NCBI RefSeq assembly: GCF_028583425.1 | Contig: NC_072793.1 | Coordinates: forward strand, 172,399,681-172,463,680 | Origin: Eublepharis macularius | Taxonomy: Eukaryota > Chordata > Lepidosauria > Squamata > Eublepharidae | Length of the DNA stretch: 64,000 nt | Reading direction: 5' to 3' | Part shown: positions 16,297 to 46,792 of the stretch, piece by piece | Numbering within the stretch: position 1 is the stretch's first letter | How the letters are laid out: every line of letters begins with the position of its first letter | Notes under the pieces: model-generated | Databases searched by the model: none | Told to the model about the DNA's origin: nothing | What the model saw: the letters and a program-made list of their open reading frames with translations, nothing else | Program-made: the position numbers and the translations under genes

Positions 16297-16359
16297 TCAG
16301 CGAGCGCCAGCGAGGAGACATTGTTTCTTAGAGAGAGAGGAGAAGGCGAGTGGGGCGCC

Positions 16360-17958: not shown

Positions 17959-17996
17959 TGAGAGCTAAGCTACAAGAGACGAAGTTCACGAGTTTG
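17959..17996 (+). repeat. Left terminal inverted repeat of the giant element
   Basis: TGAGAGCTAAGCTACAAG starts the left end. It pairs with the complement of 44371-44408, with six mismatches in 37. A palindromic AACACGTGTT follows at about 18055-18064. Confidence 0.6.
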
Positions 17997-18211
17997 TGCG
18001 AGTGAACGAAATGGCGTCTGTTCCTGCTTGCCCGTGTCCATTTTGCCCAAATTGAACACGTGTTCTGTGCCTCTGATCCATCACTAACCGTGTAGTTGTA
18101 CTGGCGAGTGTCCGCAGTCATTATCATCGAGTCCCCTTTGCAGAGTGGCGTGTTTTTTTGCTTCCGCTTCCCTCTTCCCTTTTTTGCAAATGTTTTTTTC
18201 CTCAGCTCAGG

Positions 18212-18222
18212 TAGATGGCGCT
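18212..18222 (+). promoter_or_regulatory. CTCF-like core motif, left arm
   Basis: TAGATGGCGCT fits the YAGRKGGCRSY core of the CTCF consensus on the + strand. The four bases before it fit poorly. It lies about 252 bp from the left end, mirroring the stronger site at 44143-44157. Confidence 0.45.
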
Positions 18223-18344
18223 CACAGCTACTGTTTATTGGGCTACAGGAGAACTGTCAATGTACCCTTCCTCGCAGTGCAAATTGTGACGTAGGATGAG
18301 TGCAGTTTCCAAGATGACCTCCCCCCCCCTTATTTCAGAGCTGC

Positions 18345-19012
18345 GATTTTCCACAAAGTATACTGCCCCCAAATGAGCATTATTTATTAAAATGTTATTC
18401 GGATTCATTAACAGATCCGCCGTTGCACCAGAAAACAACACAGATTGTGACAGGGAAGTGCAAGAGCAGCACATGTGTCGGAGGTGACCCCCTGCTACCC
18501 GTTCCCCCCCCCACACTTTTCCCCTCCATCCCAGTGGCACCTCCCCCCCTCCACATCCTAGCTCTGGGTCAGTACAGGCAGAGCTCTCTGGTTTGGAGGG
18601 GGTGTGTGGTATGCGTGGTAGCAGTGGTAAAGACCCAGTAGCACCTTTAGGACTCAGAATATTTTCACTGCCTTAAGCGCTGGAAAATCACAGGTCTCTT
18701 TGTCAGATGCATCTGACGAAAAGAGCTGTGTTTCTGCAAAGCTGCTGTGAAGACACATTAGCACCTTTCGGACTCAGAATCTCTTTAGTGCCTTAATCGT
18801 TGGAGAACCGCAGGTCTCCTTGTCGGATGCATCTGACAAAGAGACCTGTGGTTCTGCAAAGCTTATGCCACAGTACAGTTGGCCAGGTTTTAAGGCGCTA
18901 CTGGACTCAGTCTTTACCCTTTTGCTACCACAGACTAACACGGCTACTTCTTCTGGATCTCTAGCTGGACGCTTGATGAGCCCGCAGCTGGGCTCAGAGC
19001 CCTTCATGGCTG
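18345..19012 (+). repeat. Outer flanking modules of the left arm (Q- and P-type)
   Basis: 18360-18500 is a diverged copy of the module at 32170-32285 (ACAGATCC.C.GTTGCA, GACAGGGAAGTGC.AGAGCA, TGTGTCGGAGGTGACC). 18745-19012 reads through the dispersed-element tail (ACTAACACGGCTACTTCTTC) into GAGCCCTTCATGGCTGCTGAA, the module also present at 32425-32510 and inverted at 37800-38080 and about 43841-43880. Confidence 0.65.
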
Positions 19013-19028
19013 CTGAAATCTCCTCCAG

Positions 19029-19621
19029 TATGCAAAAAGAGAGAGTAATGGTATAGACCACAGTATCACCACAATTAGAGAGTTACACCAGTGAGCGAGC
19101 TGTAATTAGGAGAGAAATGCTGTTTGACGTGCTGTATTTGTAACTGCTCTGAAGAAGGGGATACCGGAAACGGGACCTCTTGTTGGCTGACCCGTTCAGT
19201 TACAATTCTGAAAAATGTCATTTTGAATTCAATAATTAATTTTGTGTTAAAGTCGACTTGGGCAACAATTTTGTGCTTTGTACATATTGAGTTCTGCAGG
19301 AAACTGTATGATATTGTATAGAGGCTTTTGTAGCCCTTTGATAAGCTTGGATGTTTCTGCAAACAACAGGGGCTTGGTTTGAATGTTACACCACCCCTGT
19401 GAAGATGCTTATTGGAATGACAATATACACACTGTTATAGTTGTTGAAGATGCTTATTGGAATGACAATATACACACTGTTATAGTTGTCCTAACAGAAG
19501 TGGCTAGAATGACTTGCTGATATTTATATTGTGTGAGTAAATTTTGTAATTTTGCACATAACGTGCTCTAAAAGTTTTTTTACAATTGATTAGTTAGTTG
19601 ATAACGGTGATTTTGGTGATA
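19029..19621 (+). mobile_element. Retroelement insertion with 16-bp target duplication, possibly Penelope-like
   Basis: CTGAAATCTCCTCCAG occurs at 19013-19028 and again at 19622-19637, exactly flanking this 593-bp insert. Without it, the left-arm module continues as in the inverted copy at 37800. The insert contains a CTGAAGA...GGAAAC stretch (19149-19170) like the hammerhead core found in Penelope-like elements, and a 46-47 bp direct duplication (19397-19490). No coding frame was found. Target duplication and insertion are directly visible; the Penelope assignment is inference. Confidence 0.6.
19149..19170 (+). ncRNA. Candidate hammerhead-like ribozyme core
   Basis: CTGAAGA, a short GG...CC stem-loop, then GGAAAC: the order CUGANGA-stem II-GAAA of hammerhead ribozymes. 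Stems I and III could not be established by eye, so this remains a pattern match within a retroelement insert. Confidence 0.25.
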
Positions 19622-19954
19622 CTGAAATCTCCTCCAGGGCTGCCCGCCCTCTTTGAAAAAAATGAATTGAAAGAAATCCTGGGGGCTGTGGAGAGAGGGG
19701 CACGTCTAGTGCAAGAAAAGCGGGGCTGCTAGAAATGCCTGGTGTTGCTGAATGCTTTTTAAGGTAGTACTGGACAACAAGCTTTTTAAGGTGCCTCTGG
19801 ACTCTGCTGCTGCTCCGGGCTTCGTCCAAACAGAAGTTTGTTGAACCCTGCAGGAGCCGTCCTCCACCTACTAGCTCTGTGTCAGTACAGGCTGAACTCT
19901 CTGGTTTGGAGAGCTGGGGGGGGAGGGTTTGTATAGGTGGCTGTGATGGTGAAG

Positions 19955-22900
19955 ACCCAGTAGCACCTTTCGGACTCAGAATCTTTTCACTGCCTTCAGC
20001 GTTGGAGAACCACAGGTCTCTTTGTCGGATGCATCTGACAAAGATATCTGTGGTTCTGCAAAGCTTACGCTGCTATAAATGCTATATATCATCAGACGGA
20101 GCCCTGCCATGCACCCTGCTCGCCCAGTCGATTGTAGAAATATCCTTCCCCCCCCCTCCACATCCCAGCTCTCTGTCAGTACCAGCTGTGCTCTCCAGTT
20201 TGGAAAGCTGGCAGTTGGGGGGTGGGTATAGATAGTTGCGATGGTGAAGACCCAGTAGCACCTTTCGGACTCAGAATCTTTTCACTGCCTTCAGCATTGG
20301 AGAACCACAGGTCTCTTTGTCAGATGCATCTTACAAAGAGACCTGTGGTTCTGCAAAGCTTATGCCACAGTACAGTTGGCTAGTTTTAAAGGTGCTACTG
20401 TACTCTTTACTCTTTTGATACCACAGAAAAACACTGTACAGGCTGGGTCCACTCCGCTGGAGACGGAGCCCTGCCATGCACCCTGCTCGCCCAGTCGATT
20501 GTAGAAATATCCTCCCCCCCCCTCCACATCCCAGCTCTCTGTCAGTACCAGCTGTGCTCTCCAGTTTGGAAAGCTGGCAGTTGGGGGGTGGGTATAGATA
20601 GTTGCGATGGTGAAGATCCAGTAGCACCTTTCGGACTCAGAATCTTTTCACTGCCTTCAGCGTTGCAGAACCACAGGTCTCTTTGTCGGATGCATCTGAC
20701 AAAGAGACCTGTGGTTCTGCAAAGCTTATGCCACAGTACAGTTGGCTAGTTTTTAAGGTGCTACTGGACTCTTTACTCTTTTGATACCACAGAAAAACAC
20801 TGTACAGGCTGGGTCCACTCCGCTGGAGACGGAGCCCTGCCATGCACCCTGCTCGCCCAGTCGATTGTAGAAATATCCTTCCCCCCCCCTCCACATCCCA
20901 GCTCTCTGTCAGTACCAGCTGTGCTCTCCAGTTTGGAAAGCTGGCAGTTGGGGGGTGGGTATAGATAGTTGCGATGGTGAAGACCCAGTAGCACCTTTCG
21001 GACTCAGAATCTTTTCACTGCCTTCAGCGTTGCAGAACCACAGGTCTCTTTGTCGGATGCATCTGACAAAGAGACCTGTGGTTCTGCAAAGCTTATGCCA
21101 CAGTACAGTTGGCTAGTTTTTAAGGTGCTACTGGACTCTTTACTCTTTTGATACCACAGAAAAACACTGTACAGGCTGGGTCCACTCCGCTGGAGACGGA
21201 GCCCTGCCATGCACCCTGCTCGCCCAGTCGATTGTAGAAATATCCTTCCCCCCCCCCCTCCACATCCCAGCTCTCTGTCAGTACCAGCTGTGCTCTCCAG
21301 TTTGGAAAGCTGGCAGTTGGGGGGTGGGTATAGATAGTTGCGATGGTGAAGACCCAGTAGCACCTTTCGGACTCAGAATCTTTTCACTGCCTTCAGCATT
21401 GGAGAACCACAGGTCTCTTTGTCAGATGCATCTGACGAAAAGAGCTGTCTTTCTGCAAAGCTTATGCCACAGTACAGTTGGCTAGTTTTAAAGGTGCTAC
21501 TGTACTCTTTACTCTTTTGATACCACAGAAAAACACTGTACAGGCTGGGTCCACTCCGCTGGAGACGGAGCCCTGCCATGCACCCTGCTCGCCCAGTCGA
21601 TTGTAGAAATATCCTTCCCCCCCCCTCCACATCCCAGCTCTCTGTCAGTACCAGCTGTGCTCTCCAGTTTGGAAAGCTGGCAGTTGGGGGGTGGGTATAG
21701 ATAGTTGCGATGGTGAAGATCCAGTAGCACCTTTCGGACTCAGAATCTTTTCACTGCCTTCAGCGTTGCAGAACCACAGGTCTCTTTGTCGGATGCATCT
21801 GACAAAGAGACCTGTGGTTCTGCAAAGCTTATGCCACAGTACAGTTGGCTAGTTTTTAAGGTGCTACTGGACTCTTTACTCTTTTGATACCACAGAAAAA
21901 CACTGTACAGGCTGGGTCCACTCCGCTGGAGACGGAGCCCTGCCATGCACCTTGCTCGCCCAGTCGATTGTAGAAATATCCTTCCCCCCCCCCCTCCACA
22001 TCCCAGCTCTCTGTCAGTACCAGCTGTGCTCTCCAGTTTGGAAAGCTGGCAGTTGGGGGGTGGGTATAGATAGTTGCGATGGTGAAGACCCAGTAGCACC
22101 TTTCGGACTCAGAATCTTTTCACTGCCTTCAGCGTTGGAGAACCACAGGTCTCTTTGTCAGATGCATCTGACGAAAAGAGCTGTCTTTCTGCAAAGCTTA
22201 TGCCACAGTACAGTTGGCTAGTTTTTAAGGTGCTACTGTACTCTTTACTCTTTTGATACCACAGAAAAACACTGTACAGGCTGGGTCCACTCCGCTGGAG
22301 ACGGAGCCCTGCCATGCACCCTGCTCGCCCAGTCGATTGTAGAAATATCCTTCCCCCCCTCCACATCCCAGCTCTCTGTCAGTACCAGCTGTGCTCTCCA
22401 GTTTGGAAAGCTGGCAGTTGGGGGGTGGGTATAGATAGTTGCGATGGTGAAGACCCAGTAGCACCTTTCGGACTCAGAATCTTTTCACTGCCTTCAGCAT
22501 TGGAGAACCACAGGTCTCTTTGTCAGATGCATCTGACGAAAAGAGCTGTCTTTCTGCAAAGCTTATGCCACAGTACAGTTGGCTAGTTTTTAAGGTGCTA
22601 CTGTACTCTTTACTCTTTTGATACCACAGAAAAACACTGTACAGGCTGGGTCCACTCCGCTGGAGACGGAGCCCTGCCATGCACCCTGCTCGCCCAGTCG
22701 ATTGTAGAAATATCCTTCCCCCCCCCTCCACATCCCAGCTCTCTGTCAGTACCAGCTGTGCTCTCCAGTTTGGAAAGCTGGCAGTTGGGGGGTGGGTACA
22801 GATAGTTGCGATGTTGAAGATCCAGTAGCACCTTTCGGACTCAGAATCTTTTCACTGCCTTCAGCGTTGCAGAACCACAGGTCTCTTTGTCGGATGCATC

Positions 22901-25900
22901 TGACAAAGAGACCTGTGGTTCTGCAAAGCTTATGCCACAGTACAGTTGGCTAGTTTTTAAGGTGCTACTGGACTCTTTACTCTTTTGATACCACAGAAAA
23001 ACACTGTACAGGCTGGGTCCACTCCGCTGGAGACGGAGCCCTGCCATGCACCTTGCTCGCCCAGTCGATTGTAGAAATATCCTTCCCCCCCCCTCCACAT
23101 CCCAGCTCTCTGTCAGTACCAGCTGTGCTCTCCAGTTTGGAAAGCTGGCAGTTGGGGGGTGGGTATAGATAGTTGCGATGGTGAAGACCCAGTAGCACCT
23201 TTCGGACTCAGAATCTTTTCACTGCCTTCAGCGTTGCAGAACCACAGGTCTCTTTGTCAGATGCATCTGACGAAAAGAGCTGTCTTTCTGCAAAGCTTAT
23301 GCCACAGTACAGTTGGCTAGTTTTTAAGGTGCTACTGTACTCTTTACTCTTTTGATACCACAGAAAAACACTGTACAGGCTGGGTCCACTCCGCTGGAGA
23401 CGGAGCCCTGCCATGCACCCTGCTCGCCCAGTCGATTGTAGAAATATCCTTCCCCCCCTCCACATCCCAGCTCTCTGTCAGTACCAGCTGTGCTCTCCAG
23501 TTTGGAAAGCTGGCAGTTGGGGGGTGGGTATAGATAGTTGCGATGGTGAAGATCCAGTAGCACCTTTCGGACTCAGAATCTTTTCACTGCCTTCAGCGTT
23601 GCAGAACCACAGGTCTCTTTGTCGGATGCATCTGACAAAGAGACCTGTGGTTCTGCAAAGCTTATGCCACAGTACAGTTGGCTAGTTTTTAAGGTGCTAC
23701 TGGACTCTTTACTCTTTTGATACCACAGAAAAACACTGTACAGGCTGGGTCCACTCCGCTGGAGACGGAGCCCTGCCATGCACCCTGCTCGCCCAGTCGA
23801 TTGTAGAAATATCCTCCCCCCCCCCTCCACATCCCAGCTTTCTGTCAGTACCAGCTGTGCTCTCCAGTTTGGAAAGCTGGCAGTTGGGGGGTGGGTATAG
23901 ATAGTTGCGATGGTGAAGACCCAGTAGCACCTTTCGGACTCAGAATCTTTTCACTGCCTTCAGCGTTGCAGAACCACAGGTCTCTTTGTCGGATGCATCT
24001 GACAAAGAGACCTGTGGTTCTGCAAAGCTTATGCCACAGTACAGTTGGCTAGTTTTTAAGGTGCTACTGGACTCTTTACTCTTTTGATACCACAGAAAAA
24101 CACTGTACAGGCTGGGTCCACTCCGCTGGAGACGGAGCCCTGCCATGCACCCTGCTCGCCCAGTCGATTGTAGAAATATCCTTCCCCCCCTCCACATCCC
24201 AGCTCTCTGTCAGTACCAGCTGTGCTCTCCAGTTTGGAAAGCTGGCAGTTGGGGGGTGGGTACAGATAGTTGCGATGGTGAAGATCCAGTAGCACCTTTC
24301 GGACTCAGAATCTTTTCACTGCCTTCAGCGTTGCAGAACCACAGGTCTCTTTGTCGGATGCATCTGACAAAGAGACCTGTGGTTCTGCAAAGCTTATGCC
24401 ACAGTACAGTTGGCTAGTTTTTAAGGTGCTACTGGACTCTTTACTCTTTTGATACCACAGAAAAACACTGTACAGGCTGGGTCCACTCCGCTGGAGACGG
24501 AGCCCTGCCATGCACCTTGCTCGCCCAGTCGATTGTAGAAATATCCTTCCCCCCCCCTCCACATCCCAGCTCTCTGTCAGTACCAGCTGTGCTCTCCAGT
24601 TTGGAAAGCTGGCAGTTGGGGGGTGGGTATAGATAGTTGCGATGGTGAAGACCCAGTAGCACCTTTCGGACTCAGAATCTTTTCACTGCCTTCAGCGTTG
24701 CAGAACCACAGGTCTCTTTGTCAGATGCATCTGACGAAAAGAGCTGTCTTTCTGCAAAGCTTATGCCACAGTACAGTTGGCTAGTTTTTAAGGTGCTACT
24801 GTACTCTTTACTCTTTTGATACCACAGAAAAACACTGTACAGGCTGGGTCCACTCCGCTGGAGACGGAGCCCTGCCATGCACCCTGCTCGCCCAGTCGAT
24901 TGTAGAAATATCTTTCCCCCCCTCCACATCCCAGCTCTCTGTCAGTACCAGCTGTGCTCTCCAGTTTGGAAAGCTGGCAGTTGGGGGGTGGGTATAGATA
25001 GTTGCGATGGTGAAGATCCAGTAGCACCTTTCGGACTCAGAATCTTTTCACTGCCTTCAGCGTTGGAGAACCACAGGTCTCTTTGTCGGATGCATCTGAC
25101 AAAGAGACCTGTGGTTCTGCAAAGCTTATGCCACAGTACAGTTGGCTAGTTTTTAAGGTGCTACTGGACTCTTTACTCTTTTGATACCACAGAAAAACAC
25201 TGTACAGGCTGGGTCCACTCCGCTGGAGACGGAGCCCTGCCATGCACCCTGCTCGCCCAGTCGATTGTAGAAATATCCTCCCCCCCTCCTCCACATCCCA
25301 GCTTTCTGTCAGTACCAGCTGTGCTCTCCAGTTTGGAAAGCTGGCAGTTGGGGGGTGGGTATAGATAGTTGCGATGGTGAAGACCCAGTAGCACCTTTCG
25401 GACTCAGAATCTTTTCACTGCCTTCAGCGTTGCAGAACCACAGGTCTCTTTGTCGGATGCATCTGACAAAGAGACCTGTGGTTCTGCAAAGCTTATGCCA
25501 CAGTACAGTTGGCTAGTTTTTAAGGTGCTACTGGACTCTTTACTCTTTTGATACCACAGAAAAACACTGTACAGGCTGGGTCCACTCCGCTGGAGACGGA
25601 GCCCTGCCATGCACCCTGCTCGCCCAGTCAATTGTAGAAATATCCTTCCCCCCCCCTCCACATCCCAGCTCTCTGTCAGTACCAGCTGTGCTCTCCAGTT
25701 TGGAAAGCTGGCAGTTGGGGGGTGGGTATAGATAGTTGCGATGGTGAAGACCCAGTAGCACCTTTCGGACTCAGAATCTTTTCACTGCCTTCAGCATTGG
25801 AGAACCACAGGTCTCTTTGTCAGATGCATCTGACGAAAAGAGCTGTCTTTCTGCAAAGCTTATGCCACAGTACAGTTGGCTAGTTTTAAAGGTGCTACTG

Positions 25901-28900
25901 TACTCTTTACTCTTTTGATACCACAGAAAAACACTGTACAGGCTGGGTCCACTCCGCTGGAGACGGAGCCCTGCCATGCACCCTGCTCGCCCAGTCGATT
26001 GTAGAAATATCCTTCCCCCCCTCCACATCCCAGCTCTCTGTCAGTACCAGCTGTGCTCTCCAGTTTGGAAAGCTGGCAGTTGGGGGGTGGGTATAGATAG
26101 TTGCGATGGTGAAGATCCAGTAGCACCTTTCGGACTCAGAATCTTTTCACTGCCTTCAGCGTTGCAGAACCACAGGTCTCTTTGTCGGATGCATCTGACA
26201 AAGAGACCTGTGGTTCTGCAAAGCTTATGCCACAGTACAGTTGGCTAGTTTTTAAGGTGCTACTGGACTCTTTACTCTTTTGATACCACAGAAAAACACT
26301 GTACAGGCTGGGTCCACTCCGCTGGAGACGGAGCCCTGCCATGCACCTTGCTCGCCCAGTCGATTGTAGAAATATCCTTCCCCCCCCCTCCACATCCCAG
26401 CTCTCTGTCAGTACCAGCTGTGCTCTCCAGTTTGGAAAGCTGGCAGTTGGGGGGTGGGTATAGATAGTTGCGATGGTGAAGACCCAGTAGCACCTTTCGG
26501 ACTCAGAATCTTTTCACTGCCTTCAGCGTTGGAGAACCACAGGTCTCTTTGTCAGATGCATCTGACGAAAAGAGCTGTCTTTCTGCAAAGCTTATGCCAC
26601 AGTACAGTTGGCTAGTTTTTAAGGTGCTACTGTACTCTTTACTCTTTTGATACCACAGAAAAACACTGTACAGGCTGGGTCCACTCCGCTGGAGACGGAG
26701 CCCTGCCATGCACCCTGCTCGCCCAGTCGATTGTAGAAATATCCTTCCCCCCCTCCACATCCCAGCTCTCTGTCAGTACCAGCTGTGCTCTCCAGTTTGG
26801 AAAGCTGGCAGTTGGGGGGTGGGTATAGATAGTTGCGATGGTGAAGACCCAGTAGCACCTTTCGGACTCAGAATCTTTTCACTGCCTTCAGCGTTGGAGA
26901 ACCACAGGTCTCTTTGTCAGATGCATCTGACGAAAAGAGCTGTCTTTCTGCAAAGCTTATGCCACAGTACAGTTGGCTAGTTTTAAAGGTGCTACTGTAC
27001 TCTTTACTCTTTTGATACCACAGAAAAACACTGTACAGGCTGGGTCCACTCCGCTGGAGACGGAGCCCTGCCATGCACCCTGCTCGCCCAGTCGATTGTA
27101 GAAATATCCTTCCCCCCCTCCACATCCCAGCTCTCTGTCAGTACCAGCTGTGCTCTCCAGTTTGGAAAGCTGGCAGTTGGGGGGTGGGTATAGATAGTTG
27201 CGATGGTGAAGATCCAGTAGCACCTTTCGGACTCAGAATCTTTTCACTGCCTTCAGCGTTGCAGAACCACAGGTCTCTTTGTCGGATGCATCTGACAAAG
27301 AGACCTGTGGTTCTGCAAAGCTTATGCCACAGTACAGTTGGCTAGTTTTTAAGGTGCTACTGGACTCTTTACTCTTTTGATACCACAGAAAAACACTGTA
27401 CAGGCTGGGTCCACTCCGCTGGAGACGGAGCCCTGCCATGCACCTTGCTCGCCCAGTCGATTGTAGAAATATCCTTCCCCCCCCCTCCACATCCCAGCTC
27501 TCTGTCAGTACCAGCTGTGCTCTCCAGTTTGGAAAGCTGGCAGTTGGGGGGTGGGTATAGATAGTTGCGATGGTGAAGATCCAGTAGCACCTTTCGGACT
27601 CAGAATCTTTTCACTGCCTTCAGCGTTGGAGAACCACAGGTCTCTTTGTCGGATGCATCTGACAAAGAGACCTGTGGTTCTGCAAAGCTTATGCCACAGT
27701 ACAGTTGGCTAGTTTTTAAGGTGCTACTGGACTCTTTACTCTTTTGATACCACAGAAAAACACTGTACAGGCTGGGTCCACTCCGCTGGAGACGGAGCCC
27801 TGCCATGCACCCTGCTCGCCCAGTCGATTGTAGAAATATCCTTCCCCCCCCCTCCACATCCCAGCTCTCTGTCAGTACCAGCTGTGCTCTCCAGTTTGGA
27901 AAGCTGGCAGTTGGGGGGTGGGTATAGATAGTTGCGATGGTGAAGACCCAGTAGCACCTTTCGGACTCAGAATCTTTTCACTGCCTTCAGCGTTGGAGAA
28001 CCACAGGTCTCTTTGTCAGATGCATCTGACGAAAAGAGCTGTCTTTCTGCAAAGCTTATGCCACAGTACAGTTGGCTAGTTTTTAAGGTGCTACTGTACT
28101 CTTTACTCTTTTGATACCACAGAAAAACACTGTACAGGCTGGGTCCACTCCGCTGGAGACGGAGCCCTGCCATGCACCCTGCTCGCCCAGTCGATTGTAG
28201 AAATATCCTTCCCCCCCCCTCCACATCCCAGCTTTCTGTCAGTACCAGCTGTGCTCTCCAGTTTGGAAAGCTGGCAGTTGGGGGGTGGGTATAGATAGTT
28301 GCGATGGTGAAGACCCAGTAGCACCTTTCGGACTCAGAATCTTTTCACTGCCTTCAGCGTTGCAGAACCACAGGTCTCTTTGTCGGATGCATCTGACAAA
28401 GAGACCTGTGGTTCTGCAAAGCTTATGCCACAGTACAGTTGGCTAGTTTTTAAGGTGCTACTGTACTCTTTACTCTTTTGATACCACAGAAAAACACTGT
28501 ACAGGCTGGGTCCACTCCGCTGGAGACGGAGCCCTGCCATGCACCCTGCTCGCCCAGTCGATTGTAGAAATATCCTTCCCCCCCCTCCACATCCCAGCTC
28601 TCTGTCAGTACCAGCTGTGCTCTCCAGTTTGGAAAGCTGGCAGTTGGGGGGTGGGTATAGATAGTTGCGATGGTGAAGACCCAGTAGCACCTTTCGGACT
28701 CAGAATCTTTTCACTGCCTTCAGCGTTGCAGAACCACAGGTCTCTTTGTCAGATGCATCTGACAAAGAGACCTGTGGTTCTGCAAAGCTTATGCCACAGT
28801 ACAGTTGGCTAGTTTTTAAGGTGCTACTGTACTCTTTACTCTTTTGATACCACAGAAAAACACTGTACAGGCTGGGTCCACTCCGCTGGAGACGGAGCCC

Positions 28901-32098: not shown

Positions 32099-32520
32099 AA
32101 AGTAGGTTAGTCTAGGAAGTCCACGCAGAGGAGAGCAGAGGTGAGCTGAGATCATAGTTTGGGCTGGGATGTGATAACTTTGGTTATTCATGTTTTGATG
32201 TCCACTCACAGATCCACAGTTGCAACAAAAAATAACAGATTGCGGGTGCGACAGGGAAGTGCTAGAGCAAATGTGTCGGAGGTGACCAACCTTCTACCTG
32301 TCCCCCCCTTCCCCCCCAACCACCTCCACCCTGCACAGCTGATATGAGTCGGGGGGGGGGGGCTGCAGAGCCAGCAAGGCAGGGAGGCTGATCTCCGGTT
32401 TGGAGAGCTGGGGGGGGGGGTACTTCTTCTGGATCTATAGCTGGACGCTTTATGAGCCCTCAGCTGGGCTCAGCGCCCTTCATGGCTGCTGAAATCTCCT
32501 CCAGGGCTGCCCGCCCTCCA
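32099..32520 (+). repeat. Inner flanking modules of the left arm
   Basis: Starts at GTAGGTTAGTCTAGGAAGTC and continues through AACAGATTGCGGG..GACAGGGAAGTGC to the GCCCTTCATGGCTGCTGAA module. It is the mirror image of 37810-38447 on the right side, with the same junction to the array (ATATCTGTGGTTCTGCAAAG). G/C homopolymer runs separate the two modules. Confidence 0.85.
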
Positions 32521-33255
32521 TCCCCTACCAGCAACTGGACCCAGCTTGTGAGCCAGACCCGGGGAGCGATTGCTGAAGGAAGGAAAGGACCATGCTGCAG
32601 GCAGCCAAAGAGAGCCGTGCTCTGTTCAAGCCCTGCTTGCCCATTCCATTGCCAAAATATCTTCCCCCATCTTTCTCCCCAAAGAAATTAGCTGTGATTC
32701 ATGAAATCTCATGCCCTGCTGCGAATAGCATCAGCCTTAAAGGTGCTACTGTACTCCTGCTCTTTTTGTCAGGTATCTGAAGCATTGAGCAGTGAGCCAA
32801 GTATAAGTAATTGACGAAGAGGAACAGTTTCGCTAACCCCCGCATCCCCAACCCTCGCTTGCAAGGGTACAGCGAATTCTGCTGTACTATACTCTGCACA
32901 ATACCAGTATAATCCAACAGTTAATCTTGTGCATTGCCTACTCTTAGTACAATTTAGGCAAAGTATTCAGGTACACCACAAGAGCAAAAATTATCTGTTT
33001 AATGACACGAAACTGAGATACAAAATTCACCGTATTGGTTGTGAATAGAAGTATCAGAAATAAAAACAAAAGGAAAGTCTGAGAGACACCAACGCATGCA
33101 GTTGTGCAATTCCAATTAGGAACCGAAATTATCCAAGTGTTAAGGGTTGTCATATTTAGACTAGAAAACTTACTTTTGGATCACCCATGATGCCCATTAC
33201 ACTTGGCAGCCTGTGCTTAGTATTGCTAAGCACGGGTCAATAACAGAGATAACAT
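32521..33255. other. Left part of the central region, non-coding
   Basis: Contains a fragment of the dispersed element at about 32733-32775 (CTTAAAGGTGCTACTGTACTC) and otherwise unique sequence. A short palindrome, GTGCTTAGTATTGCTAAGCAC-like, lies at about 33211-33231. No gene is seen. This is the downstream side of the transposase gene, which reads leftward. Confidence 0.5.
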
Positions 33256-34704
33256 TTAACGTGAGAAGTGTTTACAGTACGCAGAACGGATCTTTAGCGC
33301 CCTTTCTGTCATTGCTGCTTCTGACCAGGGGATCAAGGGCCTCTCCTCAGGGGGATCTAGCAAGTCTTCACGGAGAAATGGACCATAAAGCATGTCCCCA
33401 CGAGCAAGACATATGTTGTGGAGGACGCAGCAAGTGGTGATGACAGCTGTCATCAGTCTCTCACTCATATGCAGACCCTTTTGCAAAATAAGCCATCTAT
33501 TTTTCAAAATCGCAAAACTCCTCTCCACCGTCATACGACAACTGCTTAGTCGAAAGTTAAATCTCTCTTGAGCAGCTGAGGATGGTGCAGGATATGGTTT
33601 CATTAGCCACGGACGCAATGGGTATGCAGGATCACCAATTATTACGGGATCAAATGTGACTCCCTCCAATGTCCATGGCATCTTCGGCAGTCTTGTTCCT
33701 TCCTCCATACGTTGAAAGAGGGGCGAGTTACGCAGCACTCTTGCATCATGTGCCTTTCCTGGGAATCCCACAAATATATCCAGGAATCTGGCCCTTGTGT
33801 CAACAACTGCCTGAAGGATCATGGAGCAGTAACCTTTCCTGTTGATGTAACTCTCTCCAGAAAAGGGGGGAGCTCTAATTCTGATGTGGGTGCCATCCAC
33901 AGCGCCCCAGGCATGAGGGAAACTGTGTTCCTTGAAGCCGTTAAGAACAGCATTGATATCATCAATTCGAATCCACTTCTCAGTCAACTTGGCCGCAATA
34001 AGCTCGCACACCTCATCGAAGACAGAGCAGATTGTTGACACTCCTTTGCTGAAACCTGGCAACAGAGCTGCATTTGTTGTACCCATCGCCAGTTTCCATA
34101 TGGTGATTGCCACAAGCTCCTCTGGTGAGATGGGTTCACGCATGTTTGTTGTCTCTCTCTTCAGGTATACACGTAGCTCATCTACTATGTATTCAAATGT
34201 ACCCCTACTCATGCGAAACTGCTGTAACCATTGCGAGTCATCAAACTGATTGTTGATCCACCATGGCCACCAATGAGGGCTAGCCCGCGCAAGCACCCAT
34301 GCCGACCGTCTGTGTTCAAACATTGAGTTGGTCCAGTATGCCATCTCCTCTAATGCTGCCAACATCGCCATTGCAGCTCTCAACCTTCGGCGGCTCTTGG
34401 TGTTTTGATGTGCAGCCGGGGTAGTTCCATGCACCCTGTTGCAAAGCTCCACCAGCAATATACTGCTTTTAGCAATTTCACTTGCAAAGCTCTGAACGTT
34501 GATTTGTAGCCGATGGATAAGTCTGCGGCCCATTCTTCGGTTCAGAATGGAATGCACCTCATCAGCGTTGCTAGATTTAATTACTTTTTCTGGAAATCGT
34601 CCCATTGTAAGTTTATCTCGTTGATGTTCCAGGGATTTATGTCTTTTTCCAAAAATGTGGGTAGAGAAAAATGCGTAGTGACAGCAATTGAAGTGTAGTT
34701 CCAA
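33256..34704 (-). CDS. PIF/Harbinger DDE transposase, intact
   Basis: An uninterrupted 482-residue frame. The C-terminal two thirds are a DDE_Tnp_4 catalytic domain: AVDGTHI (Asp 270), GFPGKAHDARVL (Asp 320), IGDPAYPL (Asp 358) and MTVERSFAILKNRW (Glu 394). That gives the catalytic Asp-Asp-Glu set with 35 residues between the second Asp and the Glu. Residues about 140-260 contain the conserved WLQQFRMSRGTFEYIV and AITIWKLA helix-turn-helix-like region that precedes the domain in this family. The enzyme would cut and rejoin element ends in the nucleus. The start may be Met 1 or Met 34. Nothing in the frame suggests decay, in contrast to most old DNA elements. A Myb/SANT partner protein, normally needed by Harbinger elements, was not found nearby. 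Confidence 0.92.
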   Translation of the reverse strand: MELHFNCCHYAFFSTHIFGKRHKSLEHQRDKLTMGRFPEKVIKSSNADEVHSILNRRMGRRLIHRLQINVQSFASEIAKSSILLVELCNRVHGTTPAAHQNTKSRRRLRAAMAMLAALEEMAYWTNSMFEHRRSAWVLARASPHWWPWWINNQFDDSQWLQQFRMSRGTFEYIVDELRVYLKRETTNMREPISPEELVAITIWKLAMGTTNAALLPGFSKGVSTICSVFDEVCELIAAKLTEKWIRIDDINAVLNGFKEHSFPHAWGAVDGTHIRIRAPPFSGESYINRKGYCSMILQAVVDTRARFLDIFVGFPGKAHDARVLRNSPLFQRMEEGTRLPKMPWTLEGVTFDPVIIGDPAYPLRPWLMKPYPAPSSAAQERFNFRLSSCRMTVERSFAILKNRWLILQKGLHMSERLMTAVITTCCVLHNICLARGDMLYGPFLREDLLDPPEERPLIPWSEAAMTERALKIRSAYCKHFSR

Positions 34705-37690
34705 AATCTCTCACTGTTGAGTGCTGGGAAGGAATCCCCTAGGCCGCAAGAAAGGATGTGCTATCTGCCCAGTCATCTAATCACGAAGGAATGATTGATC
34801 GGTTAATTGGCCCACAGAAGATTGGTCAGCTGAGGCCAAATGGCAAGGGAATTGAATGGCTTAAACGCCGTGATTACTCTTTGAACTTTTTATTGTTTGC
34901 ATAGTTGATCCACGGAGGATCGAAAAATTCACTTTGGTGTATCCTTTATTTCCCACTCCACGCCTCTGTGTATGCCACGAAATGAAGAATTCAGACTATA
35001 AGACAAGGCACTGCATAGCAAGTGTGAAATATTTAAATATTACAGGAAGAAAGTAAAACAGGGATCCACACAGATCCTAACAGATCCTTTTTTTTAAATA
35101 GGGCAGCCACAAATGAAACATCAAAAAACATAATACAGCCAGGTCCAGTGAGTGAAAGATAAAGTTATTGGATTCAAAGAGTAGTTCTCGCGGCCACTGC
35201 AAAAATGAGTTGAATTTGAGAAAGGGATCCTCATGAAGTCATTTGTTTTTTATATAGAAACAAAACAAATATTTTCACATTGATGATCATTTTGAAAACC
35301 AAAATCAAACATGCAAATCCAGAACATTTCTATCGCCCCAAATGGCACCCAACCAATCAGCCATCCACCGCTTCCTGGCCACGACACAGCGCATAAATTT
35401 TTTTCAATAGTAGGGATTCTCATGGATCCTATGGTTTTTTTCATAGGGCCACTCAAAATTAACCTCAAAATACTAGATCTTGTCTATTGCCACAAAAGAG
35501 ACCCAAAAAATCAGGTTCACCACTTTGTGGCTCCACCACAGCCATAGACTGAACACCTTGAAATCTTGGTGCATACCCAAGATTTTTATGCTGGTCAAAC
35601 CAGAATCATCTTCAAATCCTTCATCATGCCCTTTGTGCCTTGCCACAGACTGCACCGTTCATATTTGAACCACCACTCTGTGTTTCCATCCATAACCATA
35701 AAATATGGATCCAATGTACAGTTCCACATGGATCCTCAGGGTTTTTTAAAAGGAGTCACCAGAATTCCGAATGAGAAGCTCACTTTCACAGCAACAAAAT
35801 AATAATTTTTAAAAACCCTTTCTGATCCAAGTCTGTGCGGCATTGTTGTTGTTCCAACACACATTAAATACATGGATCCTCACACGGCGTTATGATTTCT
35901 TCTATTCCTACATCCAAATACATGGTGAAATGACATTGCTCATCAATGACCATGTAGTGACCCATTAGACCAACAAATGTAGCATTTCATGGTTCCTTAA
36001 TTGTAAGAAAACTGTATCAGAAGTTGTTGATTCTCATGCAAGTTTCATGGAGTACCATCATAATTCAGATCAGAGAATCCTTGCTTTATTCAACCATTAT
36101 TAACTGTGATGAAAACTAACTAGGAGTTGCATTTATTATTTCTCAGGGAACTGACTCCCAACTGTCCTTTCCAGACTACTCAATTTTCCTGCCTAGTGGA
36201 CCCAGGGTTCATAATCTACCCCCTCCCCCACAATGTGCCCACAGCCACTTCATCAGCTCCCATGGTGTTAAAGGCACAGCTGACTTCCACTCCAGAAACA
36301 CGTGAGGCACAGCTACCATGGCAAAGGCACACTCCCAAATGCTAGAAAGTTTCCAAACACACAGGAGAGATTGCCAGGTATCAGAGGCACACTCCCATTG
36401 CATGCTCATCCCTGGAAAAGAACAGCAGAACCAAACTGTTTAGTGCAACAGAACCAATGTCATTCATAGCAGCCCAGCAGAAGCCAGTACCAGTGGGGCG
36501 GGGGGGGGGGGGGGAAACAAACATAAGCAAGTGAGATACAAAAACAGTTGTATAAGATCCCACTTGGACTCAACCTGAAAGAGAGAGTGAGGTTTATTTT
36601 CTGCACCTTTCTTGCAGAACCTCGTTTATGAGAGGTTTCCATTCCCTCGCTTCAGTTGGGTTCTTTATTTCTTACCCAGAATGAACTTGCACTAGCTGGC
36701 ATGCCTTTTCCAAGCCTGTGTTGGTTGCAGAGAGTGGAGTACTTGTATTGGCACAAATTGTCCCTCTCACTCTAACTTTCTGATGCCATCCCTGTACAAA
36801 GGATCTTTTCCCACTGTTTGTGGTACATGACGCTGGATGTAAGACTGTTTTTAGTGCAATATGTGGCAATGGACATGATATGAGACAGCACATTGAATTT
36901 GGGAGGATACTATGCAAAAAAACATAGGATTCATGAGGATCCATGCTTTTGGACCTATTTCTCGCTGTTATGGAGATTCAATACCCCTCCCTGAATTCCT
37001 GTTTCTGGCTCCTGCTAAGTAACGGATTTCTGAGGATCAGGTTAACCAATGCATCATTCAGAGTCCGAAATTGCGACTTGCCTCCCATGAATCAAATTTT
37101 AAATTCACAGCAGACCAAAGTTATGTTTAAAGTTAACCAAAAGAAAAGAAGGAATCAACCAGTCTCCAGGAAACAGCTCTTCCCATGCCGGCATCATTAA
37201 ACTGGCAGGGATCATAAATTTCATTCTCAAGTACTGTGACATGGGATAGAAATTTCAGCATGATTGGGTAACATAAACATCCGCTGTGAAACAAATACAG
37301 ATGGCTATCTAGGCATAACATCTGAGTCTAAGGCTTTGATGTCAGTGGCAGTCTCTTGGAAGTTGTAATCAATGTGGCCCCATTTACATTTCAAACTTAC
37401 ATCGCTATCCAATTTGCATAGTATCAACAAACAGCTTTGAAACCCAAGTTTTTCAAATTTGTCTAACTCCTCTGCTCAAAGGGAATGGAAACCTCTCATA
37501 AACACAGTGAATCAAGGGGACCAAGTAGTACCAAGCCACAGGCAGAAGACAGCCGCACTAGAGAGTTCTGTTCCTGATCTACGGCTACTTATCAAAGAGA
37601 CCTATTTCGACATCCCTAAGCTGTACTTAGGTTGAAGCAGGACAGCACTAACTGTCCCACAGTCGCTGCGAAACACTTTCAGACTATCCG
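34705..37690. other. Central region of the giant element, non-coding, with diverged internal repeats
   Basis: No ORF with a recognisable domain was found. Between about 35050 and 35900 GGATCC-containing words recur (about 35058, 35227, 35423, 35706, 35730, 35873), several followed by a T-run and a GGGC(A)CCAC-like word. This suggests strongly diverged tandem repeats of roughly 150-190 bp. A G-run of 16 lies near 36500. This is where a second Harbinger ORF would be expected if it had existed. Confidence 0.45.
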
Positions 37691-38447
37691 GAATCTATTT
37701 TCATCCTTTCAGCAACACCAGGCTTTTCTAGCAGCCCCGCTTTTCTTGCACTAGACGTGCCCCTCTCTCCACAGCCCCCAGGATTTCTTTCAATTCATTT
37801 TTTTCAAAGAGGGCGGGCAGCCCTGGAGGAGATTTCAGCAGCCATGAAGGGCTCTGAGCCCAGCTGCGGGCTCATCAAGCGTCCAGCTAGAGATCCAGAA
37901 GAAGTAGCCGTGTTAGTCTGTGGTAGCAAAAGGGTAAAGACTGAGTCCAGTAGCGCCTTAAAACCTGGCCAACTGTACTGTGGCATAAGCTTTGCAGAAC
38001 CACAGGTCTCTTTGTCAGATGCATCCGACAAGGAGACCTGCGGTTCTCCAATGCTTAAGGCACTAAAGAGATTCTGCGTCCGAAAGGTGCTACTGTGTCT
38101 TCACCATCACAACCACCTATACCACCCCCCCCCCCAGCTCTCCAAACCGGAGATCAGCCTCCCTGCCCAGCTGGCTCTACAGCCCCCCCCTGACTCATAT
38201 CAGCTGTGCAGGGTGGAGGTGGTTGGGGGGGAAGGGGGGGACAGGTAGAAGGTTGGTCACCTCCGACACATTTGCTCTAGCACTTCCCTGTCGCACCCCC
38301 AATCTGTTATTTTTTGTTGCAACTGTGGATCTGTGAGTGGACATCAAAACATGAATAACCAAAGTTATCACATCCCAGCCCAAACTATGATCTCAGCTCA
38401 CCTCTGCTCTCCTCTGCGTGGACTTCCTAGACTAACCTACTTTATAG
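37690..38447 (-). repeat. Inner flanking modules of the right arm
   Basis: Mirror image of left-arm sequence. 37690-38090 is the complement of 18745-19012 joined to 19638-19760, without the 593-bp insert. 38195-38447 is the complement of 32099-32350. Junctions to the array are the same as on the left. This is direct evidence that the two arms are inverted copies. Confidence 0.85.
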
Positions 38448-41400
38448 CAGTGTAAGCTTTGCAGAACCACAGATATCTTTGTCAGATGCATCTGACAAAG
38501 AGACCTGTGGTTCTGCAACGCTGAAGGCAGTGAAAAGATTCTGAGTCCGAAAGGTGCTACTGGATCTTCACCGTCGCAACTATCTATACCCACCCCCCAA
38601 CTGCCAGCTTTCCAAACTGGAGAGCACAGCTGGTACTGACAGAGAGCTGGGATGTGGAGGGGGGGGAAGGATATTTCTACAATCGACTGGGCGAGCAGGG
38701 TGCATGGCAGGGCTCCGTCTCCAGCGGAGTGGACCCAGTCTGTATAGTGTTTTTCTGTGGTATCAAAAGAGTAAAGAGTCCAGTAGCACCTTAAAAACTA
38801 ACCAACTGTACTGTGGCATAAGCTTTGCAGAACCACAGGTCTCTTTGTCAGATGCATCTGACAAAGAGACCTGTGGTTCTCCAACGCTGAAGGCAGTGAA
38901 AAGATTCTGAGTCCGAAAGGTGCTACTGGATCTTCACCATCGCAACTATCTATACCCACCCCCCAACTGCCAGCTTTCCAAACTGGAGAGCACAGCTGGT
39001 ACTGACAGAGAGCTGGGATGTGGAGGGGGGGGAAGGATATTTCTACAATCGACTGGGCGAGCAGGGTGCATGGCAGGGCTCCGTCTCCAGCGCAGTGGAC
39101 CCAGCCTGTACAGTGTTTTTCTGTGGTATCAAAAGAGTAAAGAGTACAGTAGCACCTTAAAAACTAGCCAACTGTACTGTGGCATAAGCTTTGCAGAACC
39201 ACAGGTCTCTTTGTCAGATGCATCTGACAAAGAGACCTGTGGTTCTCCAACGCTGAAGGCAGTGAAAAGATTCTGAGTCCGAAAGGTGCTACTGGATCTT
39301 CACCATCGCAACTATCTATACCCACCCCCCAACTGCCAGCTTTCCAAACTGGAGAGCACAGCTGGTACTGACAGAGAGCTGGGATGTGGAGGGGGGGAAG
39401 GATATTTCTACAATCGACTGGGCGAGCAGGGTGCATGGCAGGGCTCCGTCTCCAGCGGAGTGGACCCAGTCTGTATAGTGTTTTTCTGTGGTATCAAAAG
39501 AGTAAAGAGTCCAGTAGCACCTTAAAAACTAACCAACTGTACTGTGGCATAAGCTTTGCAGAACCACAGGTCTCTTTGTCAGATGCATCTGACAAAGAGA
39601 CCTGTGGTTCTCCAACGCTGAAGGCAGTGAAAAGATTCTGAGTCCGAAAGGTGCTACTGGATCTTCACCATCGCAACTATCTATACCCACCCCCCAACTG
39701 CCAGCTTTCCAAACTGGAGAGCACAGCTGGTACTGACAGAGAGCTGGGATGTGGAGGGGGGGGGAAGGATATTTCTACAATCGACTGGGCGAGCAGGGTG
39801 CATGGCAGGGCTCCGTCTCCAGCGCAGTGGACCCAGCCTGTACAGTGTTTTTCTGTGGTATCAAAAGAGTAAAGAGTACAGTAGCACCTTAAAAACTAGC
39901 CAACTGTACTGTGGCATAAGCTTTGCAGAACCACAGGTCTCTTTGTCAGATGCATCTTACAAAGAGACCTGTGGTTCTCCAACGCTGAAGGCAGTGAAAA
40001 GATTCTGAGTCCGAAAGGTGCTACTGGATCTTCACCATCGCAACTATCTATACCCACCCCCCAACTGCCAGCTTTCCAAACTGGAGAGCACAGCTGGTAC
40101 TGACAGAGAGCTGGGATGTGGAGGGGGGGGGAAGGATATTTCTACAATCGACTGGGCGAGCAGGGTGCATGGCAGGGCTCCGTCTCCAGCGGAGTGGACC
40201 CAGCCTGTACAGTGTTTTTCTGTGGTATCAAAAGAGTAAAGAGTCCAGTAGCACCTTAAAAACTAGCCAACTGTACTGTGGCATAAGCTTTGCAGAACCA
40301 CAGGTCTCTTTGTCAGATGCATCTGACAAAGAGACCTGTGGTTCTCCAACGCTGAAGGCAGTGAAAAGATTCTGAGTCCGAAAGGTGCTACTGGATCTTC
40401 ACCATCGCAACTATCTATACCCACCCCCCAACTGCCAGCTTTCCAAACTGGAGAGCACAGCTGGTACTGACAGAGAGCTGGGATGTGGAGGGGGGGGAAG
40501 GATATTTCTACAATCGACTGGGCGAGCAGGGTGCATGGCAGGGCTCCGTCTCCAGCGGAGTGGACCCAGTCTGTATAGTGTTTTTCTGTGGTATCAAAAG
40601 AGTAAAGAGTCCAGTAGCACCTTAAAAACTAGCCAACTGTACTGTGGCATAAGCTTTGCAGAACCACAGGTCTCTTTGTCAGATGCATCTGACAAAGAGA
40701 CCTGTGGTTCTCCAACGCTGAAGGCAGTGAAAAGATTCTGAGTCCGAAAGGTGCTACTGGATCTTCACCATCGCAACTATCTATACCCACCCCCCAACTG
40801 CCAGCTTTCCAAACTGGAGAGCACAGCTGGTACTGACAGAGAGCTGGGATGTGGAGGGGGGGGGAAGGATATTTCTACAATCGACTGGGCGAGCAGGGTG
40901 CATGGCAGGGCTCCGTCTCCAGCGCAGTGGACCCAGCCTGTACAGTGCTTTTCTGTGGTATCAAAAGAGTAAAGAGTACAGTAGCACCTTAAAAACTAGC
41001 CAACTGTACTGTGGCATAAGCTTTGCAGAACCACAGGTCTCTTTGTCAGATGCATCTGACAAAGAGACCTGTGGTTCTCCAACGCTGAAGGCAGTGAAAA
41101 GATTCTGAGTCCGAAAGGTGCTACTGGATCTTCACCATCGCAACTATCTATACCCACCCCCCAACTGCCAGCTTTCCAAACTGGAGAGCACAGCTGGTAC
41201 TGACAGAGAGCTGGGATGTGGAGGGGGGGGGGAAGGATATTTCTACAATCGACTGGGCGAGCAGGGTGCATGGCAGGGCTCCGTCTCCAGCGCAGTGGAC
41301 CCAGCCTGTACAGTGTTTTTCTGTGGTATCAAAAGAGTAAAGAGTACAGTAGCACCTTAAAAACTAGCCAACTGTACTGTGGCATAAGCTTTGCAGAACC

Positions 41401-43690
41401 ACAGGTCTCTTTGTCAGATGCATCTGACAAAGAGACCTGTGGTTCTCCAACGCTGAAGGCAGTGAAAAGATTCTGAGTCCGAAAGGTGCTACTGGGTCTT
41501 CACCATCGCAACTATCTATACCCACCCCCCAACTGCCAGCTTTCCAAACTGGAGAGCACAGCTGGTACTGACAGAGAGCTGGGATGTGGAGGGGGGGGGA
41601 AGGATATTTCTACAATCGATTGGGCGAGCAGGGTGCATGGCAGGGCTCCGTCTCCAGCGGAGTGGACCCAGCCTGTACAGTGTTTTTCTGTGGTATCAAA
41701 AGAGTAAAGAGTCCAGTAGCACCTTAAAAACTAGCCAACTGTACTGTGGCATAAGCTTTGCAGAACCACAGGTCTCTTTGTCAGATGCATCTGACAAAGA
41801 GACCTGTGGTTCTCCAACGCTGAAGGCAGTGAAAAGATTCTGAGTCCGAAAGGTGCTACTGGATCTTCACCATCGCAACTATCTATACCCACCCCCCAAC
41901 TGCCAGCTTTCCAAACTGGAGAGCACAGCTGGTACTGACAGAGAGCTGGGATGTGGAGGGGGGGAAGGATATTTCTACAATCGACTGGGCGAGCAGGGTG
42001 TTGGCAGGGCTCCGTCTCCAGCGGAGTGGACCCAGCCTGTACAGTGTTTTTCTGTGGTATCAAAAGAGTAAAGAGTACAGTAGCACCTTAAAAACTAGCC
42101 AACTGTACTGTGGCATAAGCTTTGCAGAACCACAGGTCTCTTTGTCAGATGCATCTGACAAAGAGACCTGTGGTTCTCCAACGCTGAAGGCAGTGAAATG
42201 ATTCTGAGTCCGAAAGGTGCTACTGGGTCTTCACCATCGCAACTATCTATACCCACCCCCCAACTGCCAGCTTTCCAAACTGGAGAGCACAGCTGGTACT
42301 GACAGAGAGCTGGGATGTGGAGGGGGGGGGAAGGATATTTCTACAATCGACTGGGCGAGCAGGGTGCATGGCAGGGCTCCGTCTCCAGCGGAGTGGACCC
42401 AGCCTGTACAGTGTTTTTCTGTGGTATCAAAAGAGTAAAGAGTACAGTAGCACCTTAAAAACTAGCCAACTGTACTGTGGCATAAGCTTTGCAGAACCAC
42501 AGGTCTCTTTGTCAGATGCATCCGACAAAGAGACCTGTGGTTCTCCAACGCTGAAGGCAGTGAAAAGATTCTGAGTCCGAAAGGTGCTACTGGATCTTCA
42601 CCATCGCAACTATCTATACCCACCCCCCAACTGCCAGCTTTCCAAACTGGAGAGCACAGCTGGTACTGACAGAGAGCTGGGATGTGGAGGGGGGGGAAGG
42701 ATATTTCTACAATCGACTGGGCGAGCAGGGTGCATGGCAGGGCTCCGTCTCCAGCGCAGTGGACCCAGCCTGTACAGTGTTTTTCTGTGGTATCAAAAGA
42801 GTAAAGAGTACAGTAGCACCTTAAAAACTAGCCAACTGTACTGTGGCATAAGCTTTGCAGAACCACAGGTCTCTTTGTCAGATGCATCTGACAAAGAGAC
42901 CTGTGGTTCTCCAACGCTGAAGGCAGTGAAAAGATTCTGAGTCCGAAAGGTGCTACTGGATCTTCACCATCGCAACTATCTATACCCACCCCCCAACTGC
43001 CAGCTTTCCAAACTGGAGAGCACAGCTGGTACTGACAGAGAGCTGGGATGTGGAGGGGGGGGGGAAGGATATTTCTATAATCGACTGGGCGAGCAGGGTG
43101 CATGGCAGGGCTCCGTCTCCAGCGGAGTGGACCCAGCCTGTACAGTGTTTTTCTGTGGTATCAAAAGAGTAAAGAGTCCAGTAGCACCTTAAAAACTAGC
43201 CAACTGTACTGTGGCATAAGCTTTGCAGAACCACAGGTCTCTTTGTCAGATGCATCTGACAAAGAGACCTGTGGTTCTCCAACGCTGAAGGCAGTGAAAA
43301 GATTCTGAGTCTGAAAAGTGCTACTGGATCTTCACCATCGCAACTATCTATACCCACCCCCAACTGCCAGCTTTCCAAACTGGAGAGCACAGCTGGTACT
43401 GACAGAGAGCTGGGATGTGGAGGGGGGGGAAGAATATTTCTACAATCGACTGGGCGAGCAGGGTGCATGGCAGGGCTCCGTCTCCAGCGGAGTGGACCCA
43501 GCCTGTACAGTGTTTTTCTGTGGTATCAAAAGAGTAAAGAGTCCAGTAGCACCTTAAAAACTAGCCAACTGTACTGTGGCATAAGCTTTGCAGAACCACA
43601 GGTCTCTTTGTCAGATGCATCCGACAAAGAGACCTGTGGTTCTGCAACGCTGAAGGCAGTGAAAAGATTCTGAGTCCGAAAGGTGCTACT
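38448..43690 (-). repeat. Right array: 14 tandem copies of the 366-bp unit, inverted
   Basis: Boundaries at 38554, 38920, 39286, 39651, 40018, 40385, 40751, 41118, 41486, 41853, 42217, 42584, 42950 and 43318 give 14 full units of 364-368 bp. A partial unit at 38448-38553 has the same inner-edge form as 31989-32098. All units are of the CTGACAAAGAGACC subtype; the second subtype of the left array is absent. The unit palindrome is usually interrupted by a C/G mismatch (GGTTCTCCAACGC). Unit orientation is opposite to the left array. Confidence 0.95.
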
Positions 43691-43713
43691 GGGTCTTCAC
43701 CATCACAGCCATC

Positions 43714-43716
<3 letters not shown>

Positions 43717-43745
<29 letters not shown>
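43717..43745 (+). repeat. (AC)n microsatellite
   Basis: About 14 AC dinucleotides at the outer edge of the right array. Confidence 0.95.
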
Positions 43746-44370
43746 AGCTCTCCAAACCAGGCGCAAGCCAGGACTCCAGCTCCAGCTCCGCTTCCAGGCG
43801 GAGTGACAAGAGCGCTTGCTCGCTCGGGCCACCTACAGCAGACATGAAGGGCTCTGAGCAGAGCTGACAGCTCATTAATGGTCCTGCACGGGCTGTTTAC
43901 ACCCTCTCTCTATCTAGACTCCAGTGTATCATTTTTCTAAGGTTTTTAATAAACAAGACTGTATCATGTAGGCACCTGATAATCTGCAATCTACAGAGAG
44001 CGAGAGGGGTTTGGAGAGCTCTGTGCGAGGACCACCAAATGCTTTTTAAACTGCAATACTTGTAGTTGAGTCTAGCAGCTCCTTACAGAGCATGTATTTC
44101 CAATAGCACCGTAAAAAGGATTTAGGAACGACTGTGCACAGCAGCGCCACCTGGTGGTCAAAAGTTGAAAACATTTTCTGCAGAGAAAATTCAACAAAAA
44201 AGAATTGAGCATGCGCAAACCCGTGGTGATTCATGGGATACCTCTCACAGTATGGGAGGAACAAGGAAGAAACCCGTGCAAGGACAGACACGGGATCTAC
44301 AGCAATGTGATCACGGTAGGCAAGTGCACATGAAAGAAGGGGGGGAACACGTGCAAGTCATTTCACGTGT
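43746..44370. other. Outer part of the right arm
   Basis: 43841-43880 is a remnant of the P module (ACATGAAGGGCTCTGAGC). The rest is single-copy within the window up to the terminal repeat and holds the CTCF-like site at 44143-44157. CACGTG occurs three times within 40 bp next to the end (about 44349, 44366, 44376). Confidence 0.6.
44143..44157 (-). promoter_or_regulatory. CTCF consensus site, right arm
   Basis: On the minus strand it reads CCACCAGGTGGCGCT, a full match to CCASYAGRKGGCRSY. It lies about 250 bp inside the right end and faces the left-arm motif, so the pair is in convergent orientation. Occupancy cannot be judged from sequence. Confidence 0.65.
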
Positions 44371-44408
44371 CAAACACGTGAAATTTGTCACTTGTAGCGT
44401 CGCTCTCA
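44371..44408 (-). repeat. Right terminal inverted repeat of the giant element
   Basis: The complement begins TGAGAGCGACGCTACAAGTG and pairs with 17959-17996. It is rich in CACGTG words, which may be transposase or Myb-partner binding sites (inference). Confidence 0.6.

Positions 44409-46792
<2,384 letters not shown>

Follow-up and report, generated by a model that had tools for sequence, protein, structure and literature searches.

A PIF/Harbinger-type transposon copy of 26.4 kb with mirrored satellite-like arms in Eublepharis macularius

In a stretch of 64,000 nucleotides from the 2.24-Gb genome of Eublepharis macularius (C4:172399681-172463680; here called the window), positions 17962-44405 are very likely a single inserted copy of a PIF/Harbinger-type transposon in which a module of ~366 bp has been amplified in both arms. 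From its tip inward, each arm of this 26,444-bp element consists of a terminal domain, a module, an array of ~366-bp units, and an inner module that leads into a shared centre, and the module pairs of the two arms stand in mirrored order without any match to two neighbouring control stretches. The arrays make up 17,266 of the 26,444 bp and the remainder is 9,178 bp. The parts of the element are listed with their window coordinates, strand (where there is one) and basis.

17959..17961 (+): left target-site duplication, TGA (TCA in the empty site); both-ended copies and empty site
17962..44405 (no strand): whole element; family ends at other loci, empty site, lengths
17962..18410 (+): T-left, the left terminal domain, with a short hairpin and a CTCF-like core at ~18208; at least 40 genome matches, alignment of 10 copies
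18411..20093 (+): left outer module and array-unit remnants, split by an insert of 593 bp (19029-19621)
20094..32089 (+): left array of 33 anchored units, each 365-369 bp long; Tandem Repeats Finder (TRF), anchors, unit-core matches
32090..32518 (+): left inner module, mirror-image counterpart of the right inner module; identity 97.6% (333 bp) and 95% (101 bp)
32519..37707 (no strand): centre; related sequence at C1, C2 and C5 loci
33256..34704 (-): DDE transposase frame, 482 amino acids from a TTG, with the first ATG at residue 34 (34605)
37708..38452 (-): right inner module; comparison of the mirrored arms
38453..43722 (-): right array of 14 anchored units, each 362-369 bp long; TRF, anchors, unit-core matches
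43723..44405 (-): T-right, the right terminal domain, with a hairpin and a perfect CTCF-like core at 44157-44143; at least 40 genome matches, C3 copy at 99.3%
44406..44408 (+): right target-site duplication, TCA; both-ended copies and empty site

The inverted similarity of the two ends starts exactly at 17959 and 44408, as stated in the original prediction, which had described the ends as matching inverted repeats. This description needs trimming in two respects: the outermost 3 bases are the target-site duplication, so that the limits of the element are 17962 and 44405, and the good match covers only the outermost 65-110 bp. Local alignment of the 500-bp ends gives a score of 64 that covers the first ~110 bp (the maximum of 500 dinucleotide shuffles is 42), and BLAST reports a terminal inverted repeat of 73% over 66 bp, which is short as is characteristic of PIF/Harbinger elements. 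Further inside, the similarity between the ends lies 1.3 standard deviations above shuffles for segment 110-320 and below shuffles for segment 320-460. Beyond the outermost ~65-110 bp, left and right are two different end sequences, each of which is conserved among its own relatives.

A search outside the tips at 17959 and 44408 found no equal 3-mer or longer match at equal offsets from -12 to +12; it was the relatives that later placed the duplication in the outer 3 bases, with the left one differing by one base. Eleven copies with both ends are available, and 10 were counted for duplications because the right tip of L046 was not placed. The flanking 3 bases are identical in 7 of these 10 (TCA three times, TGA twice, CAA and AGA), showing that the family inserts with a 3-bp duplication that is mostly TNA. 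For the window copy itself, a 95% paralogue of the right flank lies at C4:172210259-172210851, and at C4:172210851 the two window flanks meet around a single TCA with no element between them. The left flank of this paralogous empty site aligns with a score of 47 (maximum of 2,000 shuffles, 27), and 25 of its last 30 bases agree without a gap. Since the empty site has one TCA, the duplication in the window is TGA/TCA with one substitution on the left, and the single TCA together with the 7 of 10 copies establishes the 3-bp target-site duplication typical of PIF/Harbinger. A second paralogue (C4:184834776, 74%) has a similar arrangement and likewise reads ACTCA at the junction; it is not counted as an empty site because its left flank scores 26 against a shuffle maximum of 27.

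Judged by matches to the terminal sequences, both ends belong to a family that is dispersed in the same genome. On the left, 28 of the best 40 matches out of 322 candidates begin within the first 3 bases, and on the right 25 of the best 40 out of 225 candidates begin within the first 4 bases, the window being included in both counts. Among 17 left-end loci that were fetched to look for a right end, 9 (L036-L043 and L046) proved to be short elements in which the left end and an inverted right end lie at opposite sides, and L031 has both ends at a length of 2.36 kb; the other 7 show no complete right end within the stretch fetched. A further both-ended copy, L013 (C1:245487441-245490055), is 2.6 kb long. 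The end pattern has 0 matches in viral contigs. The original prediction that CTCF-like cores lie at equal distance from both ends is borne out: the left core lies ~250 bp from its tip and the right core 252 bp from its own, with 2 and 0 mismatches, respectively, to a 15-base consensus. The left core alone is unremarkable, as the 64-kb window has 11 sites with up to 2 mismatches, 10 of them with exactly 2. Across the aligned copies (window included), all 10 left ends retain the core with 2-3 mismatches and all 3 right ends with 0-2. Both tips also have a short hairpin (right 44385-44360, TTTCAC...GTGAAA; left ~17984-18008, GTTCAC...GTGAAC) that resembles a compensated pair and, as judged by eye, is kept across aligned copies.

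The centre contains the complete DDE_4 transposase that had been recognized originally: the frame at 33256-34704 on the minus strand is uninterrupted and without a stop, and it matches the DDE_Tnp_4 profile of PIF/Harbinger transposases over its whole length (E 1.9e-34). In an alignment of 22 sequences, D358 is invariant and D270 and E394 are nearly so, and we read these three residues as the putative catalytic triad. Among the best 88 of 1,833 candidates in a protein search of the genome, the window copy scores 100% and all others at most 74%, with many uninterrupted copies of ~70% identity. A search by sequence found 0 relatives in the PDB. Three transposase relatives (C6:114846238, C4:182915082-182916403 and C4:169805435) have a right-end match within 7 kb where 0.02 such pairs would be expected by chance, and this proximity indicates that the transposase belongs with these ends. 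The three right-end matches begin at base 12 of the query, so the tips are not covered. Relative to the gene, 2 of the 3 relatives have the right end placed as in the window, and 1 has it on the opposite side. A sister Harbinger of ~70% protein identity is present in many uninterrupted copies (e.g., C9:94768477 and C11:12005986; L048 and L049); two of its copies agree at 99.8% across the 4.49 kb that were compared, which points to a very recent expansion of this sister family. The centre also has a perfect 24-bp inverted repeat at 36624-36647 and 37480-37503, 832 bp apart, possibly a nested element, with no clear duplication by eye.

The claim that the same modules and the same 366-bp arrays occur in opposite orientation in the two arms agrees with the mirrored module pairs and with 33 unit anchors at 20091-31818 on the plus strand and 14 at 43486-38723 on the minus strand, spaced by 362-369 bp. 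TRF delimits the arrays at 20094-32089 and 38453-43722 with 97-98% matches, and the stretch 26819-32421 aligns inverted to 43722-38124 at 97.9%. Units differ on average by 1.95% within the left array, 1.33% within the right array and 2.04% between the sides. The innermost units of the two arms are only 0.73% apart and differ by at least 2.55% from every other unit. Among 20 registers between the arrays, the inner-anchored one is best at 1.64% while the others range from 1.79 to 2.23%. Copying of the whole array as a mirror image was rejected because of the scatter among nearest neighbours, with a clear link for the innermost pair alone. The right inner module also has a copy in the left outer arm (98.6-99.2%), split by the 593-bp insert; this insert comes with a 16-bp duplication and, by eye, resembles a Penelope-like element. 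A hairpin repeat that is dispersed in the genome accounts for about half of the array unit. It recurs in the window at 1193-1285, 11467-11703, 12585-12661 and 60800-60911 and at ~30 genome places, and these hairpins may be Chompy-like miniature inverted-repeat transposable elements (MITEs), which occur in reptile genomes.

What sets the window copy apart from its relatives is the arrays. A unit core of 32 bases outside the hairpin has 47 genome matches with up to 3 mismatches, namely 33 and 13 in the left and right arrays, respectively, and 1 at C1:245308878, and the reversed control has 0. This last match lies inside a relative with a single unit (C1:245307393-245315296), where the left end leads into a unit-like piece and then an inverted centre; the part of this centre that matches 34361-35557 at 93% includes the first 344 bp of the transposase gene. 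TRF found no 366-bp array in the sequence taken from 10 relatives (S1-S4, L031-L035 and the C5 copy over its first 8 kb), while the window as control gives 10.6 copies; exactly one loose unit anchor is present in 5 of the 10. The C5 copy (16499240-16510915) is a full-length relative of 11,676 bp that holds pieces of the centre and was read over its first 8 kb plus the tip. Copies of the centre that end far inside 17959 and 44408 had been named in the original prediction as evidence against an element of this extent, and we find the opposite, a copy that shares both tips and is flanked by AGA/AGA as its duplication. Apart from two of the 77 bases shown, its flank is that of L031, and the two are thus counted once, as a single insertion in duplicated DNA. 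Other tandem repeats, with periods of 140-164 bp, are present in L035 and the C5 copy, and from their sequence it seems that different copies amplify different modules. These repeats lie in the centres or arms of the relatives, at 5537-6965 of L030 and L047 joined and at 687-2074 of L035. The T-right arm matches a C3 copy at 99.3% over 689 bp up to the array edge, which suggests that elements with this end were copied recently. Two right-end matches on C3 have flanks that are identical as far as read and may be one insertion in duplicated DNA.

A precise insertion, ends shared with a family, mirrored modules and homogeneous units limited to this copy are directly visible, and the relatives suggest how the copy may have grown. 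The transposase, acting on the ends, would have moved an element of ~9-12 kb here by cut and paste. The ~366-bp module that is single in relatives would then have been amplified in both arms through slippage or unequal exchange, and sequence exchange from one mirrored arm to the other would have kept the arrays alike and could flip the centre. Such exchange is suggested by the innermost units, which resemble each other far more than they resemble any others. The left end adjoins the centre edge at 32.5 kb in the window but the opposite edge, at 37.7 kb, in the relative at C1:245307393. This difference is what an inversion via the mirrored arms would leave behind, and the left outer and right inner modules, being nearly identical, are consistent with it. 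The arrays were probably amplified in place, which we prefer because the assembly searched has no second array-bearing copy. Because the relatives are much smaller, the "26-kb Harbinger" of the original prediction describes this copy correctly at 26,444 bp and is probably one expanded copy, with no family of that size behind it. The idea of a giant Harbinger with expanded subterminal arrays itself is sustained by the family ends, the 3-bp duplications, the empty site, the transposase and the single units in array-free relatives. A bolder version, in which a Harbinger that encodes a transposase has become a foldback element whose satellite arms exchange sequence, whose centre flips and whose size grows, so that it becomes a mobile source of new satellite, is no more than tentative.

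Several observations weigh against a simple transposon that expanded after it had landed. Flanks do not match in 3 of the 10 both-ended copies (CTA/TAG, TGA/TAA and TTA/TAG), the window copy's own duplication is imperfect with 2 of 3 bases agreeing, the similarity of its left flank to the empty site stops ~50 bp from the junction, and the full-length relative on C5 is short of ~30 bp at its right tip. A Myb/SANT partner gene is usual in autonomous Harbingers, and no significant Pfam match and thus no such partner was found in the 30 of 96 stop-to-stop frames of the centre that were tested, a set to which spliced exons do not belong; the two matches at E ~0.1 were both to unrelated families. 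Expansion may also precede rather than follow insertion. If the arrays were older than the insertion, a unit of ~26 kb would have jumped with its satellite arms as a mobile giant form, and this would agree with array, ends and transposase lying within one insertion with one empty site and with the recent movement or copying that the C3 match up to the array edge points to. We regard this as unlikely given that 46 of the 47 unit cores are here, that the stretches of 10 relatives are without the array, and that a second array-bearing copy was not found.

The remaining explanations fare worse. Tandem arrays of units that diverge by ~2% are hard to assemble, and the array lengths might be an artefact of assembly, yet the units are not identical, unit types differ between the arms, and both arrays have distinct, structured edges, which makes this improbable. 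It is still harder to believe that the transposase is a domesticated host gene between regulatory or structural arms: the frame is uninterrupted and the only copy above 74% identity among the hits considered, and there are CTCF-like cores at both ends, but the gene lies inside an insertion that is absent from the paralogous site, and with many uninterrupted sister transposases in the genome an open frame is not unusual. The original prediction had offered as its other option that the transposon captured a satellite and mirrored it. This option, or a Harbinger that inserted into a satellite before the region was inverted, would make sense of the dispersed hairpin repeat in the unit, but we find it highly improbable, as the unit core occurs only once outside the element, inside one of its relatives, and single unit-like anchors are present in half of the relatives' stretches. 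Plain insertion into a satellite was rejected, as it leaves the array in the same orientation on both sides while the arrays here are opposed.

The element sits in a cluster of duplicated zinc-finger genes, with 2181-17420 resembling 46394-63996. These two gene units are tandem duplicates that are ~93-96% identical in the best-matching stretches and differ in finger number, and their best-scoring zinc-finger relative is from Gekko japonicus. Only the second unit contains a pair of open frames at 53095-56981 (minus strand; 982 and 302 amino acids) that resembles a long interspersed nuclear element and that we would place in the CR1 class.

In foldback transposons and transposon-derived satellites as usually encountered, the transposase is missing or the parent element has already disappeared. 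With ends, duplication, empty site, transposase, single-unit relatives and expanded arrays all in one genome, the step from module to satellite becomes datable and testable, and the element offers an uncommon glimpse of satellite DNA arising from a transposon. It also cautions that a "giant transposon" may owe its size to repeat expansion in an ordinary element. PIF/Harbinger elements are usually a few kb long, are not known to carry arrays, and have short terminal inverted repeats and 3-bp duplications, typically of TWA or TNN. The window copy resembles them in its DDE_Tnp_4 transposase, TNA-type duplications, short terminal repeats and dispersed short copies with the same ends, and it differs in its 26.4 kb, two-thirds of them tandem array, and in that no Myb-type partner was found in the frames tested. 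No Harbinger of this form was found by title in literature mostly outside subscription journals and without Repbase, which is weak evidence of absence. The Helentron of the Pacific oyster reportedly carries satellite-like repeats and would likewise be a mobile element with satellite-like arrays, but of a different transposon class. Like foldback transposons, the element has long inverted arms with tandem repeats around a middle part; those transposons have several copies with such arms, whereas only one array-bearing copy was found here, and we therefore describe it as built like a foldback without filing it as a foldback family.

The closest design is that of Tetris, a foldback transposon of Drosophila virilis whose long inverted arms run from an outer flanking domain through a ~220-bp tandem repeat to an inner domain and then the middle part, and whose repeat likewise forms satellite-like arrays (PMC4079207). 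Tetris has no coding capacity, unlike the element with its Harbinger transposase in the middle, its arms reach at most 1.7 kb as opposed to ~14.6 and 6.7 kb here, and its duplications are 8-9 bp long compared to 3 bp here, with no longer match at equal offsets from the ends of the window copy (PMC4079207). The other relevant systems are MITE-derived satellites such as Xstir and miDNA4 in Xenopus, treated in a review that uses the word "Harbinger" 0 times (PMC9659126). The cases considered from it are mostly nonautonomous elements, unlike the transposase-bearing element described here, and they share with it the conversion of a DNA transposon's internal module into a tandem array (PMC9659126).

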